DNA of 9,099 nt from Pseudomonadota bacterium (GTDB taxonomy: Bacteria > Pseudomonadota > Alphaproteobacteria > Rhizobiales > Devosiaceae): the NCBI GenBank assembly GCA_023433985.1, contig JAEYTN010000303.1, forward strand, positions 1 through 9,099, in the 5' to 3' direction. The notes under the pieces are model-generated. The model had not been told where the DNA came from. It did no database searches and saw only the letters and a list, made by a program, of their open reading frames with translations. A program made the translations under genes and the position numbers. Shown piece after piece: positions 1 to 7,029 of this stretch. Numbering within the stretch: the first letter of the stretch is position 1; each line of letters begins with the position of its first letter.

Positions 1-971
1 TCGCCGGCCGGCTGCAGGTTGACCAGCAGCGGGATGTCCTGGCCGTGCTTCTGCCAGTCGTCGATCTCGAGCTCGACGCCGATATGGCGGGCAATGGCGT
101 TGATGTGGATCGGCGCGTTGGTCGAGCCACCGATCGCCGAGTTCACGACGATGGTGTTGATGAAGTTGTCCTTGGTCAGGATGTCCGAGGGCTTCAGGTC
201 CTCGTGCACCATCTCGACGATGCGCTTGCCAGTCCGGTACGAGATTTCCTGGCGGTCGCGGTAGGGTGCCGGAATGGCCGCGGAGCCGGGGAGCTGCATG
301 CCCAGCGCCTCGGCCAGCGAGTTCATGGTCGAGGCCGTGCCCATGGTGTTGCAGTAGCCGGTCGAGGGGGCGGAGGACGCCACCAGCTCGATGAACTGCT
401 CGTAGCCGATCTCGCCGGCCGCCATCATCTGGCGGGCCTTCCAAACGATGGTGCCCGAGCCGGTGCGCTCGCCGCGGAACCAGCCATTGAGCATCGGGCC
501 GACCGACAGCGCGATGGCCGGGATGTTGACCGTCGCCGCACCCATCAGCATGGCGGGGGTGGTCTTGTCGCAGCCGATGGTCAGCACGACGCCGTCGAGC
601 GGGTAGCCGTAGAGCACTTCGACGAGGCTGAGATAGGCGAGGTTGCGGTCGAGGCCCGCGGTCGGGCGCTTGCCCGTCTCCTGGATCGGGTGGACCGGGA
701 ACTCGATGGCGATGCCGCCGGCCTCGCGGATGCCCTCGCGCACGCGCTTGGCGAGCTCGATGTGGTGGCGGTTGCAGGGGCTGAGGTCCGAGCCGGTCTG
801 GGCGATGCCGATGATCGGCTTGCCCGACTGCAGCTCTTCGCGCGAAATGCCGAAATTGAGGTAGCGCTCGAGATAGAGCGCGGTCATGTCCGGGTTATCC
901 GGATTGTCGAACCAGGCGCGCGACCTCAGCTTGCGCGGGGCCGAATTCCCTGCGCCGTTACCCGAACTCAT
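1..971 (-). CDS. IlvD/Edd-family sugar-acid dehydratase, L-arabinonate dehydratase-like (partial, C-terminus outside window)
   Basis: Cytosolic Fe-S dehydratase that removes water from an aldonate to give a 2-keto-3-deoxy acid. The first 323 residues are present; the family is usually about 570-600 long, so the 3' part lies beyond the left edge. The cluster ligands are visible: Cys66 in SPCNRHH, Cys134 in GCDKTTP and Cys207 in [10 protein letters not shown]. Their spacing (68 and 73 residues) is what I recall for the [2Fe-2S] Rhizobium L-arabinonate dehydratase. Lys136 in CDKTTP corresponds to the carboxylated Mg-binding lysine. IGGSTNAP follows further on. The ATG at 971 is preceded by GGAGAGGAGACC, a strong ribosome binding site. 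It is the last visible gene of the leftward unit, 106 nt after the LacI-type regulator. Family membership is secure. Whether the substrate is L-arabinonate, D-xylonate, L-fuconate or another aldonate is inference from sequence style and neighbours. Amino-acid-pathway IlvD is less likely, given the arabinonate-type motifs and the catabolic context. Confidence 0.9.
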
Positions 972-1077: not shown

Positions 1078-2106
1078 CTAGCCGTTCCGCACGGTACTCT
1101 GGCGCGCCTTGAGGGCGATCGGATGCATGAGGACCCGCTCCTCGATGGGCTGTCCGTCGAGGCGGCGCAGCATCAGCCGGCCGGCTTCACGGCCCATATC
1201 GTAGCTGGGGATGTTGACCGTGGTGAGCGAGGGCCGCATGTAGTCGGTAAAATCGAGGTTGCCGTAGCCCGCGATGGCGATGTCCCGGGGGACGGAGATG
1301 CCGAGCTCGGCCGCGCGGAGGATGGCGCCCGTCGCCAGGATGTCGCCGGCAAAGAAGATGGCGTCCACGTCCGGGCCCTCGGCGCGGATCCTGTCGAAGG
1401 CTGCCACGCCATCGGAAATCTGGCTGGTCAGCTCGGCCGGGACGATCTTCACTAGTTCCGCACCGTGCGAGGCAAGGCCCTCCCTGAGGCCGGCGATCCG
1501 CTCGGCCCCTCTGTCCTCGACGTGGCCGCAGTAGCAGATGCGACGATACCCCTGGGCGCCCAGATGGTTTCCCATCAGCAGTCCGCCCTCCCGATTGGAG
1601 AAACCCACCAGCATGTCGATGGGATCGGCCACGCCGCCCCACATTTCGAGGCAGGGGATGCCCAGCTTCCGGAGGGAGCTTCGGGTAGCCTCCGACCGGA
1701 CGACGCCGCTGAAGACCACGCCGGCCGGGCGGAAGGGCAGGAGGGAACTCACGACGTCCGTTTCCAGCATCTCGGAATATTCGGTCTGGGCGAACATCAG
1801 GTGGTAGCGCTTGCCCTCGAAGGCATCGACCAGGCCCTGCATGGAGTTGGCGAAATGCGGGTTGAGCAGGCTCGAGACGAACACCGTGACGATCGGAGAG
1901 CGGCCCGAGCGCAGGCTCGAGGCGAAGCTGTTCACCACGTAGCCGGTCTGCGCGACCGCGTCGGCGACCTTCTTGCGCGTCTCCTCCTTGACCTTCTCAG
2001 GCTGGGAGAGGGCACGCGAAACCGTGATGGGCGAAACCCCGGCCACTCGTGCGACGTCTTCGACACGAACCGGGCGGTTCGTGTTCTTCGGTTCCTTGGC
2101 GGCCAA
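1078..2106 (-). CDS. LacI-family transcriptional regulator, GntR (gluconate repressor)-like
   Basis: DNA-binding repressor of 342 residues, normal for LacI/GalR proteins. The N-terminal helix-turn-helix is at about residues 14-36 (VEDVARVAGVSPITVSRALS), followed by the hinge region (GYVVNSFASSLRSGRS, 55-70). A periplasmic-binding-protein-like sensor domain fills roughly 72-335. Stretches such as DIAIAGYGNLDF and GAILRAAELG resemble the gluconate repressor GntR more than LacI itself, suggesting a sugar-acid effector. The start appears to be TTG at 2106, with GGGGGA about 5 nt upstream; I see no better ATG or GTG before the HTH. It sits inside the leftward cluster between the enolase-like gene and the dehydratase, so it probably controls this locus and perhaps the divergent SDR-permease unit. 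Family confidence is high; ligand and targets are inferred. Confidence 0.92.
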   Translation of the reverse strand: MAAKEPKNTNRPVRVEDVARVAGVSPITVSRALSQPEKVKEETRKKVADAVAQTGYVVNSFASSLRSGRSPIVTVFVSSLLNPHFANSMQGLVDAFEGKRYHLMFAQTEYSEMLETDVVSSLLPFRPAGVVFSGVVRSEATRSSLRKLGIPCLEMWGGVADPIDMLVGFSNREGGLLMGNHLGAQGYRRICYCGHVEDRGAERIAGLREGLASHGAELVKIVPAELTSQISDGVAAFDRIRAEGPDVDAIFFAGDILATGAILRAAELGISVPRDIAIAGYGNLDFTDYMRPSLTTVNIPSYDMGREAGRLMLRRLDGQPIEERVLMHPIALKARQSTVRNG

Positions 2107-2123: not shown

Positions 2124-2148
2124 AATATAGTAGCAGTAACAGCGCTAC
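2124..2148 (-). promoter_or_regulatory. Possible internal promoter with dyad in front of the LacI-type regulator
   Basis: In the short gap after the enolase-like gene, the minus strand carries TATATT (plus 2124-2129), five of six matches to a sigma70 -10 box, in an A/T-rich patch unusual for this window. Directly upstream is an inverted repeat with arms GTAGC (2130-2134) and GCTAC (2144-2148), which overlaps the enolase stop codon. A clear -35 box is not visible (the best at 17-bp spacing is TTCCGT). The arrangement would suit an autoregulated internal promoter, but the dyad arms are only 5 bp. Confidence 0.3.
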
Positions 2149-3425
2149 GGAATCCGGAAACTCCAGTAGCCGGTCGCGGCGACGCCCTCCGCGATCCTGA
2201 TAACTTCATTCCACTTCGCCGTCCGTTCCGAGCGGGTCATCGATCCGACCTTGATCTGATCCGACATCAGTCCGACGGCGAGATGACTCAGCGTAACATC
2301 CTCGCTCTCCCCCGAGCGGCCGGATTGTATTGTGTTCCAACCCAGCGACCGGGCGAGGCTGCTCGCCTGAATCAATTCAGTCAAAGTGCCGCACTGGTTC
2401 GATTTGAGCAACACGGAATTACACGAATGGAGACCAGCTGCATGTGCAATTCGCGCGCTGCTGGTCGTCAAGTAATCGTCACCGACGATCTGAACGGACG
2501 AGCCGAGCCGGCGGGTGATCTCGACGAAACCTTGGTCATCATCTTCGGCGAGGGGATCCTCTAGCGACACGATGGGGTAGGCCGCGACCCAGCGCTCGAG
2601 CATGTCGATCATGGCCTCGGTCGAGAGGGTTTTGCCTTCCAGCGCAAGGCGATAGCCGTTGTCGGCATAGAAGGACGAGGCGGCGACATCGAGGGCGATG
2701 CCGACGTCGCCACCAGGCTTGAAGCCAGCGGATTCGATTGCTTTCACAAGGAGTTCGAGGCCGTCCTCGTTGGCGCGGAAGTCGGGCCAGACGCCGCCCT
2801 CGTCGGCGATTCCGTTCAACTTGCCCGCCGCCTGCATCGACTTGGCGGTTGCCATGTATATTTCGGCGATCCACTCGGTGGCCTCGAGGAAGCTCGTGGC
2901 GCCGGTGGCGATGACCAAGTAGTCCTGGATGTCGATGCGGTTGCCGGCGTGGCGGCCGCCGCCGAAGATCTGGATCATCGGGGCGGGGATGTGCGGGGTG
3001 GCGGCATCGAGGCCGGCAAGGGTCCTAAGGTGTTGCCAGAGCGCTATTTCCCGCTCGGCGGCGGCGGCCCAGGCGATGGCCGAGGAGGTGGCGACGAGGG
3101 CGTTGCCGCCCAGCCGCGTCTTCTGCGGAGTGCCGTCGAGCTCGATCAGCCGGGCGTCGCACTTGAACTGGTCGAGCGCGTTAAGTCCCTGCAGTTCCGC
3201 GGCGATTTCCCCGTTCACGGCTTCGATGGCGCCGTTGACGCCGAAGCCGCCGAGGCGTTGGCCGCCGTCGCGACGGTCGAGGGCCTCGCGGCTGCCGGTA
3301 GAGGCGCCCGAGGGAGCGATGGCGCGACCGACCGCGCCGGAGGCGAGCTGGACCTCTACCTCGACCGTGGGGCGGCCGCGCGAGTCCCAGACCTGGCGTG
3401 CCCTGGTTGCTGCGATTTCTGACAC
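2145..3425 (-). CDS. Divergent enolase-like protein with altered active site
   Basis: Full-length enolase homologue, 426 residues against about 425-435 for bacterial enolases. Conserved parts, in order: the mobile loop PSGASTGSREAL (39-49), His159 in GGRHAGN, Glu209 in DEGG, Mg ligands Asp246 (ALDVAAS), Glu289 (SLEDP) and Asp316 (VGDDYLTT), the base Lys341 (LLKSNQ), Arg370-Ser371, and Lys392 in IKVGS. Two canonical catalytic positions differ. The VDIQEF-type glutamate is Asp168 (DIQDYL), and the histidine of the SHRSGE motif is Gly369 (QSGRSGESED). The start is GTG at 3425 with GAGG 8 nt upstream, 10 nt after the kinase stop, so the two are probably co-translated. Normal enolase interconverts 2-phosphoglycerate and phosphoenolpyruvate. 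Here the retained metal and phosphate ligands with a remodelled leaving-group side, plus the sugar-acid context, suggest another phosphorylated hydroxy-acid substrate. Weak or normal glycolytic activity cannot be excluded. Not named eno because of the substitutions. Confidence 0.88.
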   Translation of the reverse strand: MSEIAATRARQVWDSRGRPTVEVEVQLASGAVGRAIAPSGASTGSREALDRRDGGQRLGGFGVNGAIEAVNGEIAAELQGLNALDQFKCDARLIELDGTPQKTRLGGNALVATSSAIAWAAAAEREIALWQHLRTLAGLDAATPHIPAPMIQIFGGGRHAGNRIDIQDYLVIATGATSFLEATEWIAEIYMATAKSMQAAGKLNGIADEGGVWPDFRANEDGLELLVKAIESAGFKPGGDVGIALDVAASSFYADNGYRLALEGKTLSTEAMIDMLERWVAAYPIVSLEDPLAEDDDQGFVEITRRLGSSVQIVGDDYLTTSSARIAHAAGLHSCNSVLLKSNQCGTLTELIQASSLARSLGWNTIQSGRSGESEDVTLSHLAVGLMSDQIKVGSMTRSERTAKWNEVIRIAEGVAATGYWSFRIP

Positions 3426-3435
3426 GAAGAAGGCC

Positions 3436-4458
3436 TCATGATGAACGGATTCTGAACGGATTCTGAATGGCTTCCAGAACAGCTTCGGCGCGTTGTTCCG
3501 GCTGCTGGATCAATGGGATAGCCAGTTTTCGCACGGCGTCGCGGGCCGGTTCGTTCAAGTATTCGACCGGCGACTTGCCGTCGATCCGCGCCAGCATCAG
3601 ACACGGCAGCAGGGCCGCGACCCGTGCCTCAACCTCACCCCGCAGGGCCGCCGGGAAGTGGCCGAGCCAGGTACGGACGAATCCATCCGCCTGCCCGAGC
3701 AGGGTAGCCCCGAGCGCGGGGAGGTGGATAGATTTGAGCACGAGGTGGTTGAGGCAGAAGGCTGCGTCGAACGCCGGGTCGCCGTACCAGGCGCATTCGG
3801 CGTCGAGCAGGACCGGATGGCCATCCGCGACGGAGACGAGGATGTTCTTGGGGCTCACGTCGCCGTGGACCAGCGCCAGATGGGTGCGGCGCGAACGCTC
3901 CATGGTCGCGAGGATGCTCCCGTCGAGGTCGGGATAGCGGGCGGCGAGGGTGCGCAGGTAGGGATCGAAGCGCAGCGCGTCGATCAGGTCGTCCGTGGGG
4001 AACTCGGCGGCGGCGCCGGCGTCGTTCAGGGTGGCGGCGTGGATGCGGCCGAGCGCGTCGGCGACCCGGAGCGGAACCTGCGGGTCGGCGCGGCCGGCGA
4101 GCAGGTCGGATTTCCAGAGCGTATAATCGGCCGGCGGCAGATATTCGAGCAAGGCGATGCCGTGCTCGCGGTCCTCGGCGATCACCCCAGGCGCAGCGCC
4201 GGGGACGATAGCGCCGGCGCGGCGCAGCCAGGCGATTTCGTAGTGGTTGCGCTCGAGCGGCGCTTCCCACCGCGCGGCGACCTTGAGCTGCGACAGGGCG
4301 CGCTTGGCGCAGAACTGCCGGCCGTCGGGCAGCTCGACCCGGACGATGTCGGAGGAGACGCCGCCGGTCAGCGGCGCGACGGCCAGCGGGCCGGCTGCCT
4401 CGATTCCGGCCGAAGCGAGCATGGGCGGAAGCAGTGCTTCCCAACTGTCGGACTGCAT
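3436..4458 (-). CDS. APH-fold small-molecule kinase (phosphotransferase enzyme family)
   Basis: Soluble ATP-dependent kinase of the aminoglycoside phosphotransferase/choline kinase fold, 340 residues from the chosen start. Motifs in order: the glycine-containing nucleotide loop (LTGGVSSDIVRV, about 30-41), Lys52 (FCAKRAL), Glu74 in HYEIAWLRR, the catalytic loop HGDVSPKN (Asp200, Asn205), the metal-binding LLDAEC (Asp219), and ECAWYGDPAFDAAF. This last stretch is common in methylthioribose-kinase-like and other small-metabolite kinases rather than in resistance enzymes. The frame is open far upstream, through the divergent SDR, but that extension is antisense to a clear gene. An ATG at 4458 with G-rich GGGAGG/GGGGG upstream is preferred; an in-frame ATG at 4500 would add 14 residues and has no clear ribosome site. 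It is the first gene of the leftward unit and its stop is 10 nt before the enolase-like GTG. The substrate is unknown; a hydroxy or sugar acid is inferred from the neighbours. Confidence 0.85.
   Translation of the reverse strand: MQSDSWEALLPPMLASAGIEAAGPLAVAPLTGGVSSDIVRVELPDGRQFCAKRALSQLKVAARWEAPLERNHYEIAWLRRAGAIVPGAAPGVIAEDREHGIALLEYLPPADYTLWKSDLLAGRADPQVPLRVADALGRIHAATLNDAGAAAEFPTDDLIDALRFDPYLRTLAARYPDLDGSILATMERSRRTHLALVHGDVSPKNILVSVADGHPVLLDAECAWYGDPAFDAAFCLNHLVLKSIHLPALGATLLGQADGFVRTWLGHFPAALRGEVEARVAALLPCLMLARIDGKSPVEYLNEPARDAVRKLAIPLIQQPEQRAEAVLEAIQNPFRIRSS
3443..3470. repeat. Short tandem repeat of an 11-bp unit at the kinase 3' end
   Basis: The plus strand shows GAACGGATTCT at 3443-3453, repeated exactly at 3454-3464, followed by a degenerate partial copy GAATGG (3465-3470). 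The repeat lies inside the last codons of the kinase gene (encoding its NPFRIRSS end). Because 11 is not a multiple of three, the copies are read in different frames. Gain or loss of one unit would change the C-terminus and its distance to the enolase-like start. Confidence 0.7.
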
Positions 4459-4611: not shown

Positions 4612-5364
4612 ATGGGCCGGCTTACCGGAAAGACCATCTTCATGACCGCGGCGGCGGCCGGCATCGGGGGTGCCTGCGCCACGGCGTTCGTGCGCGAGGG
4701 CGCGCGGGTGATCGCGACGGACCGCGACGCGGCGGCAATCGCCAGGAAGGGCGAGGAACTGGCCGCGATCTCGGCTGGCCACGAGGCCTACGCGCTCGAC
4801 GTCACGGACCATGACGGGTTGCGGGCGGCGGCGGAGCGGCACGGGCAGGTCAACGTGCTCTATAACGGCGCCGGCTGGGTGCACCAGGGCATGCTCGGCA
4901 ACACCTCGCTTGCCGACTGGCAGCGCAGCTTCGACATCAACGTGACGCCGATGTTCGTGCTGACCCAGGCCTTCCTGCCCGCATTCATCGCGCAGGGCGG
5001 CGCCTCCATCATCAACATCGCCTCGGTGGCGAGCTCGCTCAAGGGCGTCCCGAACCGGGTGAGCTACATGTCGACCAAGGCGGCGGTGATCGGTTTCACC
5101 AAGTCCGTCGCCTTCGACTACATGAAGCACAATATCCGCTGCAACGCGATCTGCCCCGGCAGCGTCGACAGCCCGTCGCTGCACGAGCGGGCGGTGGCGA
5201 TCGGCGAGCACGACGAGGTGTGGAAGACCTTTATTGCCCGTCAGCCGATGGGCCGCATGGCGCAGCCCGAGGAGATGGCGCATCTCGCGGTCTATCTTGC
5301 GAGCGACGAGAGCACTTACGCGACGGGGGCGAATTTCATCTCCGATGGCGGCATCACCCTCTAG
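4612..5364 (+). CDS. SDR-family dehydrogenase, 2-keto-3-deoxy-L-fuconate dehydrogenase/DHRS6-like
   Basis: Classical short-chain dehydrogenase of 250 residues. The Rossmann motif is TAAAAGIGGA (12-21), the DHRS6-style variant of TGxxxGIG. Asp37 at the end of the second strand points to NAD over NADP. The NNAG-type motif is YNGAG (84-88), and the catalytic set is Asn110, Ser138, Tyr152 and Lys156. The stretch IASVASSLKGVPNR and the later RCNAICPGSVDSPSLHER are strongly reminiscent of human DHRS6 and bacterial 2-keto-3-deoxy-L-fuconate dehydrogenase. Arg149, Arg193 and Arg210 occupy the positions proposed there to hold the substrate carboxylate. The likely reaction is oxidation of a 2-keto-3-deoxy sugar acid, the product type of the neighbouring dehydratase. 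The ATG at 4612 follows GGGAGGAAACC, an excellent ribosome site; an in-frame ATG at 4585 is less likely. The permease follows after 33 nt. Exact substrate (fuconate, rhamnonate or pentonate derived) is undecided. Confidence 0.9.
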   Translation: MGRLTGKTIFMTAAAAGIGGACATAFVREGARVIATDRDAAAIARKGEELAAISAGHEAYALDVTDHDGLRAAAERHGQVNVLYNGAGWVHQGMLGNTSLADWQRSFDINVTPMFVLTQAFLPAFIAQGGASIINIASVASSLKGVPNRVSYMSTKAAVIGFTKSVAFDYMKHNIRCNAICPGSVDSPSLHERAVAIGEHDEVWKTFIARQPMGRMAQPEEMAHLAVYLASDESTYATGANFISDGGITL

Positions 5365-6336: not shown

Positions 6337-7029
6337 TCAGATCGCGGCCAGGTAGGCGTCGTCGAACTCGGCGAGGCGGGCGAGGCCCTCGAAGTCGTGG
6401 ACGATCAGCTCGTGGTGGACGAGGTCGGCGAGCTTGAGGCGCCGGAGCTCCTGCAAGGTGCGGTTGACGTGCACGGTCGAGAGGCCGAGCACGCTCGAGA
6501 GCATCTCCTGCGTCATGTGCAGCGGGCAGCGGTCGACCTTGTAGTTTCCGGCAGGCGTGCTGCAGCGAACCAGGGTCTCGCACAGGAAGTGCGCCATCTG
6601 CTCAAGGGCGGTACGCTGCCCAAGGCACATCAGACGCTCCTGCGCGATGCCCAGTTCGCGGTAGACCAGCACCGCCATGCCATCATGGCCGGCCGGCGCC
6701 ATCGACCGCATCTGCCGGACCGCGGGATCGGGAACGTAGCCGATGACCGAGCCGTGGAGCGCCACGAGGTAGTCGGAGTGTCCCCGGCCGGTGCCGATAT
6801 AGCCCATCAGGTTGATGACATCGTCGCGGTAGTAGACGGCGACCGTGTGCCGGCGGCCATCGGCGAGGAAGCGCTGCCGGAGCACGGCGCCTTCGAGCAC
6901 CATCTGCAGGTTGGCGTTGCGTTCCTCCACCTGCACGCGCTCGGTATAGCGCTCGCTGCGGTCGCTGGCGGCTCGCAGGGCGTCCGTCAGGCGTCTCGCT
7001 TCGGTAGGTTCCTTGATCGTGTGAAGCAC
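6337..7029 (-). CDS. Crp/Fnr-family transcriptional regulator
   Basis: Transcription factor of 230 residues. An N-terminal cyclic-nucleotide-binding-like beta-roll spans about 25-115, a dimerisation helix about 120-155 (ELGIAQERLMCLGQRTALEQMAHFLCE), and a C-terminal HTH_Crp domain about 165-225. The recognition region is MTQEMLSSVLGLSTVHVNRTL (172-192). There is no N-terminal FNR cysteine cluster. The typical cAMP-contacting Arg/Ser pair is not evident, so the signal is unknown and this is probably a divergent Crp/Fnr subgroup common in alphaproteobacteria. The start is GTG at 7029, preceded by AAAAGGACT on the minus strand. It is tail-to-tail with the permease and divergent from the RidA gene across 179 bp, so it could regulate itself or ridA. 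No good TGTGA-N6-TCACA or TTGAT-N4-ATCAA site was found in that gap. Confidence 0.9.
   Translation of the reverse strand: MLHTIKEPTEARRLTDALRAASDRSERYTERVQVEERNANLQMVLEGAVLRQRFLADGRRHTVAVYYRDDVINLMGYIGTGRGHSDYLVALHGSVIGYVPDPAVRQMRSMAPAGHDGMAVLVYRELGIAQERLMCLGQRTALEQMAHFLCETLVRCSTPAGNYKVDRCPLHMTQEMLSSVLGLSTVHVNRTLQELRRLKLADLVHHELIVHDFEGLARLAEFDDAYLAAI

Follow-up and report, generated by a model that had tools for sequence, protein, structure and literature searches.

An enolase paralogue with an altered active site and a kinase partner, predicted to act on a small 2-hydroxy acid

The window, the whole stretch of 9,099 nt analysed here, has its closest relatives in Devosia (best locus L001, 89% identity). 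The genes relevant to its enolase-like protein are the following:

3..971, minus strand: IlvD/EDD-type dehydratase, cut by the window end, with a presumed start
1078..2106, minus strand: LacI-family regulator, 38 nt downstream of the enolase paralogue
2145..3425, minus strand: enolase paralogue (D168, G369), 426 aa with a GTG start, recognised as an open reading frame with Pfam Enolase_N and Enolase_C matches
3436..4458, minus strand: APH-fold kinase, a predicted 2-hydroxy-acid kinase (PF01636) with an intact HGDVSPKN motif
about 4612..5364, plus strand: short-chain dehydrogenase, divergent from the kinase, with a presumed start codon

On the minus strand, transcription proceeds through the kinase, the enolase paralogue, the LacI-family regulator, and the IlvD/EDD-type dehydratase, in that order. 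The kinase gene, whose probable start is the ATG at 4458 behind a GGGAGG, stops 10 nt ahead of the start of the paralogue, and because the regulator follows the enolase so closely as well, the genes look like one operon. Devosia loci keep the same gene order. The nearest NCBIfam model of the regulator is that of the HTH-type regulator GntR (NF052440), at 269 bits and thus below the cut-off of 400. For the dehydratase, a relative at L003 that is 93% identical to the part within the window has as its best PDB match 7m3k, 'Galactonate dehydratase'. The short-chain dehydrogenase probably acts on a sugar or a keto acid in the same pathway, and such dehydrogenases also lie near the module in other loci. 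Elsewhere in the window (6337-7029), beside an EamA transporter, is a Crp-family protein that has an HTH_Crp_2 domain and an N-terminal half without a cNMP-binding match.

In enolase, a lysine removes the C2 proton and a glutamate handles the C3 hydroxyl; positions 168 and 369 lie on the C3 side. The original prediction, that the window protein departs from enolases at these two positions, is borne out by direct reading: Gly369 stands in place of the active-site histidine and Asp168 in place of a glutamate. These positions correspond to 373 (in the SHRSGE motif) and 168 of the yeast enzyme. H159, E209, K341, R370, S371, K392, and the metal ligands D246, E289, and D316 are intact, again as predicted. 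The description of the first catalytic glutamate as lost holds only in part, since the aspartate that replaces it keeps the carboxylate; the glutamate is thus shortened rather than fully lost.

Both substitutions are family-wide. Among 80 related genomic loci, position 168 is aspartate in 78 (78 of the 79 that are readable), glutamate in one (L019), and uncovered in one (L044), and position 369 is alanine in 66, glycine in the 14 of the Devosia group, and histidine in none. A lone odd sequence or a sequencing error is thereby ruled out. The ordinary enolases read from 20 of the 23 genomes searched all have Glu168 and His369 (20/20 each), so the Gly/Asp pair, whose frequent occurrence in ordinary enolases would have made it unremarkable, has neither member in any of the 20 compared. 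The catalytic core, in turn, is retained: D246, E289, D316, R370, S371, and K392 are present in 80 of 80 loci, H159 in all 79 read, and E209 and K341 in 79 of 80 each. In a 29-row alignment the metal ligands, K341, E209, and the phosphate residues are invariant, as are H159, R370, S371, and K392. The change is also wider than the two residues first pointed out. Compared with the 20 ordinary enolases, 84 paralogues (76 of the 80 genomic loci, with the partial or broken L012, L016, L043, and L044 omitted, plus 8 plasmid loci) differ at Q152 (84/84), G155 (84), A207 (84), W213 (83), W279 (84), V393 (83), W405 (84), and E407 (84). One member of the family, at L019:10001-11227, has E168, Q209, and T341, and the kinase is absent from the DNA around it; here, active site and kinase partner appear to have been lost together.

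The paralogue is not the only enolase of the genomes that carry it. All 23 related genomes examined hold a second one, and in 20 of these its ordinary E168/H369 could be read. Each of the 23 has at least 2 Enolase_C matches; in 22, the paralogue is the weaker match beside one of at least 416 bits, and in the remaining genome (G011) both matches are in pieces. Within a Devosia-type genus group of 19 genomes (that of G002), 14 have the paralogue together with an ordinary-type enolase and 5 have the ordinary type only, the ordinary-type proteins being 40-45% identical to the paralogue query. Thus, the paralogue is accessory, and the idea that it is the sole enolase of its genome is rejected for the relatives (second enolase in 23/23 genomes and in 14/14 carriers).

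The kinase accompanies the paralogue with few exceptions. In the window, it matches PF01636 with 73.3 bits (cut-off 23.2) and contains the HGDxxxxN motif. A tblastn search detects the kinase in 82 of 89 loci with the paralogue, and in 75 of these the match ends at most 200 nt upstream on the same strand. The other seven lie slightly further upstream (L016, L024, L061), downstream (L070, where a GntP permease separates paralogue and kinase), or on the opposite strand some kilobases off (L101-L103). Of the 82 kinases, 81 contain the motif HGD.SPKN, that of L016 being fragmentary. Of the seven loci without a kinase, four (L012, L044, L047, and L052) start on or close to the end of a contig; in L019, L027, and L078 there is space for one, and the last two count against a strictly kinase-paired module. 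The 19 genomes of the genus group serve as a control: the kinase occurs in 14/14 carriers of the paralogue versus 1/5 non-carriers, and the match in that one non-carrier (G032) is partial, covering 247 residues (2-248) at 88% identity.

The model of the kinase (pLDDT 93.2) has methylthioribose kinase as its nearest fold, and the partner shares its fold and catalytic motif with this enzyme and other APH-fold small-molecule kinases. Unlike methylthioribose kinase itself, it scores 41.6 bits against the model TIGR01767, whose cut-off is 275, and is 16-18% identical to solved enzymes when compared by structure. By sequence, the solved structures that match are again methylthioribose kinase and others, all weakly, so that homology does not name the substrate of the kinase. 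A distant relative occurs on an Enterobacter chuandaensis plasmid (L112:8869-9924), with no enolase annotated nearby; the genes around it, for a U32 peptidase, an aminotransferase, and an iron-containing redox enzyme, resemble a small biosynthetic cluster.

In an unrooted tree with 104 rows, built after omission of six near copies (L004, L005, L071, L075, L077, L102), a branch with an SH-aLRT of 99 sets the main family apart. The ordinary enolases are separate (SH-aLRT 100), and the paralogue does not group with them. A third group (SH-aLRT 88) is made up of the five proteins included from a second branch, which comprises six enolase-like proteins on plasmids of Methylobacterium, Rhodococcus (two), Sphingobium, and two haloarchaea. 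These have D168, A207, A369, and V or I393 as in the main family, but they keep N152 and have S155. All six adjoin a kinase, found with the Rhizobium kinase as query. The haloarchaeal genes (L113:8975-10234 and L114:8999-10267) lie among several mandelate-racemase-type proteins. The gene sets of Rhizobium (main family) and Rhodococcus (second branch) are alike, each with FAAH, a 2-hydroxyacid dehydrogenase, a VOC-family protein, an alcohol dehydrogenase, and PEP carboxylase; this similarity hints at a common function for the two branches.

For the neighbouring genes, 81 loci were tallied, of which 17 were removed manually as near copies, as fragments, as the degenerate L019, or as the window itself, leaving 64 loci with 214 neighbours, 139 of them on the enolase strand; 109 were hand-picked for a domain scan, and the families viewed were the 25 commonest of 101. 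Open reading frames were called mechanically, so some of these neighbours are spurious or fused. The 109 same-strand neighbours include 12 2-hydroxyacid dehydrogenases, 10 short-chain dehydrogenases, 9 FAA hydrolases, and 2 Lar_N proteins. The D-2-hydroxyacid dehydrogenase is thus the commonest neighbour (12/109 scanned), and by tblastn it occurs in 29 of 89 loci; FAAH relatives occur in 17 of 89. The IlvD gene is present in 12 loci of the Devosia group, the window included. Plasmids of Paracoccus and Roseibium carry LacI, kinase, enolase, FAAH, short-chain dehydrogenases, and a carbohydrate ABC transporter; the nearest relative of the Paracoccus FAAH is the L-2,4-diketo-3-deoxyrhamnonate hydrolase 8gsr, and it scores 352 bits against NF053535 (below the cut-off of 500). 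Between them, the actinobacterial loci L057, L068, and L079 hold a UxuA-like dehydratase, an SMP-30 lactonase, short-chain dehydrogenases, FAAH, and RraA-type proteins, and in a planctomycete locus RpiR, DJ-1-type, and GntP genes surround the kinase-enolase pair. Overall, the gene context reads as catabolism of sugar acids and hydroxy acids, but not in all loci: some neighbours (Yip1, AFG1, ParA-type and AMP-binding proteins, CMAS) have no evident link to sugar acids.

In 2 of the 89 loci searched, both on Rhizobium plasmids, PEP carboxylase lies beside the kinase and a 2-hydroxyacid dehydrogenase, and in Rhodococcus opacus PD630 its gene is about 19 kb from the module. The Rhizobium and Rhodococcus plasmid clusters (L101:14889-19224, L102:14644-19230, L119:3648-6386) contain, besides PEP carboxylase, a dioxygenase and a dehydrogenase that resemble HpaD and IolM, respectively, but score below the NCBIfam cut-offs; the clusters possibly represent an undescribed ring-cleavage or cyclitol pathway.

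The paralogue is closest to enolase (EC 4.2.1.11). Its AF2 model (pLDDT 91.9) has the fold of solved enolases, with TM 0.91-0.98 and 39-46% identity among the 50 solved enolase chains listed, and it keeps the Mg ligands, the base Lys, the acid Glu, and the phosphate and carboxylate residues. It is unlike enolase in D168, G/A369, and the eight further positions given above, in its separate branch, in its kinase partner, and in having a second enolase in the genome. The original prediction was that such a pattern reflects a changed choice of substrate rather than a dead enzyme, and the comparison supports it: the substitutions are fixed across the family, base, acid, metal, and phosphate residues are kept, and the protein is accessory to another enolase and tied to a kinase. 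On these sequence grounds, an enolase of changed function working with a kinase is very probable. A precedent, also put forward at the outset, is carboxy-PEP synthase of phosphinothricin biosynthesis, an enolase homologue that performs a related elimination outside glycolysis. For a context of that kind, a domain scan of the 10 window proteins found no phosphonate gene.

The retention of the residues for carboxylate, phosphate, and metal alongside an altered C3 side makes a 2-phospho acid, as in enolase, the most likely substrate. Glycerate is the obvious three-carbon 2-hydroxy acid, and its 2-phosphate gives PEP by loss of water. In the first step of the predicted reaction, the APH-fold kinase would phosphorylate the C2 hydroxyl of a small hydroxy acid; in the second, the paralogue would, like enolase, bind the carboxylate, the phosphate, and two Mg ions, and would eliminate the C3 hydroxyl to yield PEP. 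That PEP is the product is somewhat favoured, as suggested by the PEP carboxylase genes near the module; their occurrence in just 2 of 89 loci, plus Rhodococcus, counts against it.

Conventional glycerate kinase families are present in 19 of 20 genomes (PF13660 in 11, PF02595 in 8), so a D-glycerate route is already predicted there. Given this and the second enolase, L-glycerate is the acid for which an additional pair would be most plausible. With L-2-phosphoglycerate, the C2 proton would face the changed side of the site, and E209 would then act as the base and K341 as the acid, their roles swapped relative to enolase. The source of the acid in the window would be a sugar acid on which the IlvD dehydratase and the short-chain dehydrogenase next to the module act; at other loci, pyruvate and glycerate would be set free by a diketo-acid hydrolase (FAAH). 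The FAAH relatives of the L-rhamnose pathway are consistent with the release of an L-acid. Two sources bear on where L-configured acids may come from: a title in the reference list of PMC13406643 has L-galactose converted to L-lactate and glycerate, and according to PMC5488244 L-glyceraldehyde arises from L-galactonate in a fungus. Glycerate kinases are covered in PMC2063504. Against L-glycerate count the commonest neighbour, the D-2-hydroxyacid dehydrogenase, which favours a D-configured substrate, and the IlvD and UxuA-type dehydratases of some clusters, which are named for D-sugar acids. Taken as a whole, the conversion of a small 2-hydroxy acid, probably L-glycerate, into PEP by the paralogue and its kinase is a reading that we hold tentatively and at less than even odds, and the assignment of L-glycerate as the acid used is likewise tentative.

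The logic of hydroxy acid to 2-phospho acid to PEP would be shared with the route of glycerate 2-kinase and enolase in the branched Entner-Doudoroff and serine pathways, as is, in a few loci, the nearness of PEP carboxylase to the module. The proposed pair differs from that route in that its kinase belongs to PF01636, while the known ones belong to PF13660 or PF02595, and in its dedicated, altered enolase. A second comparison is with the non-phosphorylative diketo-hydrolase pathways (L-rhamnose, L-fucose, and pentose Route III; PMC6336799), which resemble some loci in having IlvD or another dehydratase, a short-chain dehydrogenase, and FAAH. Those pathways end in lactate or glycolate, whereas here the kinase and the paralogue would recover a three-carbon acid as PEP.

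The alternative that survives best, though we consider it fairly unlikely, is that the pair acts on a D-configured 2-phospho acid with a different C3 side, either a C4 acid such as a tetronate or one with another leaving group, for example sulfite from 2-phospho-3-sulfolactate. K341 and E209 would then work as in enolase, and the extra group would be accommodated by the altered pocket on the C3 side. The changed residues do lie on the textbook C3 side while base and acid are kept, and the commonest neighbour belongs to a family that makes D-acids. At Oscillibacter L055:6065-12261, moreover, two Lar_N (lactate-racemase-like) proteins precede the kinase-enolase pair and a TauE-type exporter follows it. 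Yet the basic residues gained by the paralogues at positions that set them apart from ordinary enolases, R18 (71/84), R191 (47), H119 (50), and H381 (80), are none of them invariant, H381 is aspartate in the second branch, and two carboxylates stay in place at 168 and 209. A tblastn search of 89 loci with the L055 protein, which could miss diverged relatives, found no TauE relative outside L055. On the Paracoccus seriniphilus plasmid (L117:2148-13666), a hisD-like gene, two UxaA-family proteins, Ldh, and a sulfate exporter lie near the kinase-enolase cluster; by its look, we take this to be a separate operon of sulfolactate/DHPS type, and its exporter is about 14 kb from the paralogue. Thus, 2-phospho-3-sulfolactate was weighed as a substrate and lowered, given the lack of an invariant basic gain, TauE at L055 alone, and the separate Paracoccus seriniphilus operon. 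From a 2-phosphotetronate the product would not be PEP, contrary to the link with PEP carboxylase.

Unlikely, too, is a dedicated isozyme for ordinary D-2-phosphoglycerate supplied by a D-glycerate 2-kinase, in which the changes merely tune rate or direction. The paralogue does pass the curated model TIGR01060, 'phosphopyruvate hydratase', with 451 bits (cut-off 300), which counts against a changed function of any kind, and the hydroxyacid dehydrogenase, PEP carboxylase, and FAAH would fit a flow from hydroxypyruvate or a hexonate through D-glycerate to PEP. Such a pair would be redundant, however, because a second enolase is present in 23/23 genomes and a conventional glycerate kinase in 19/20, and neither active-site change is seen in any of the 20 ordinary enolases. 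Mutational work points the same way: according to PMC10619443, Ser42, Asp241, Glu163, Glu204, and Lys335 of Mycobacterium tuberculosis enolase were changed to alanine, and all variants but one were non-functional. Glu163 corresponds to position 168, although the aspartate found there in the paralogue is a milder change. A pseudo-enolase with a non-catalytic, binding or regulatory role is very improbable, for although L019 shows that the active site can be lost in this family, the metal ligands, K341, E209, and the phosphate residues are invariant in 29 rows and present at 79 or 80 of 80 loci, and the operon is shared with an intact kinase.

To return to L-glycerate, searches of an open-access library found no description of this family or of a link between L-glycerate and an enolase. 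What is new is a branch of the enolase family with an altered active site and a kinase partner, whose reaction is predicted from sequence. That it forms the first dedicated route from L-glycerate to PEP, composed of an APH-fold L-glycerate 2-kinase and a stereo-inverted enolase with exchanged acid and base roles, is a speculative extension. Equally speculative is the spread of such a route, under the name of enolase, over proteobacteria, actinobacteria, firmicutes, planctomycetes, and haloarchaea. If L-2-phosphoglycerate is indeed the substrate, the pair would close a gap in the bacterial recovery of L-glycerate from L-configured sugar acids, and it would serve as a natural experiment on stereochemical control in enolase. 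Enolase is a textbook case of strict conservation. This large family passes the curated enolase model, yet its active site is rebuilt and a kinase nearly always accompanies it.

The family is also numerous. A protein search of a 5.8-billion set scored at least 7999 candidates, at least 7986 of them with E<=1e-60; among the best 120 of the 7999, most are nameless and those with names are called enolase or phosphopyruvate hydratase. Many genomes carry a second 'enolase' whose reaction the label leaves unnamed. Separately, 682 Escherichia plasmid records contain an enolase-like match below 60% identity.
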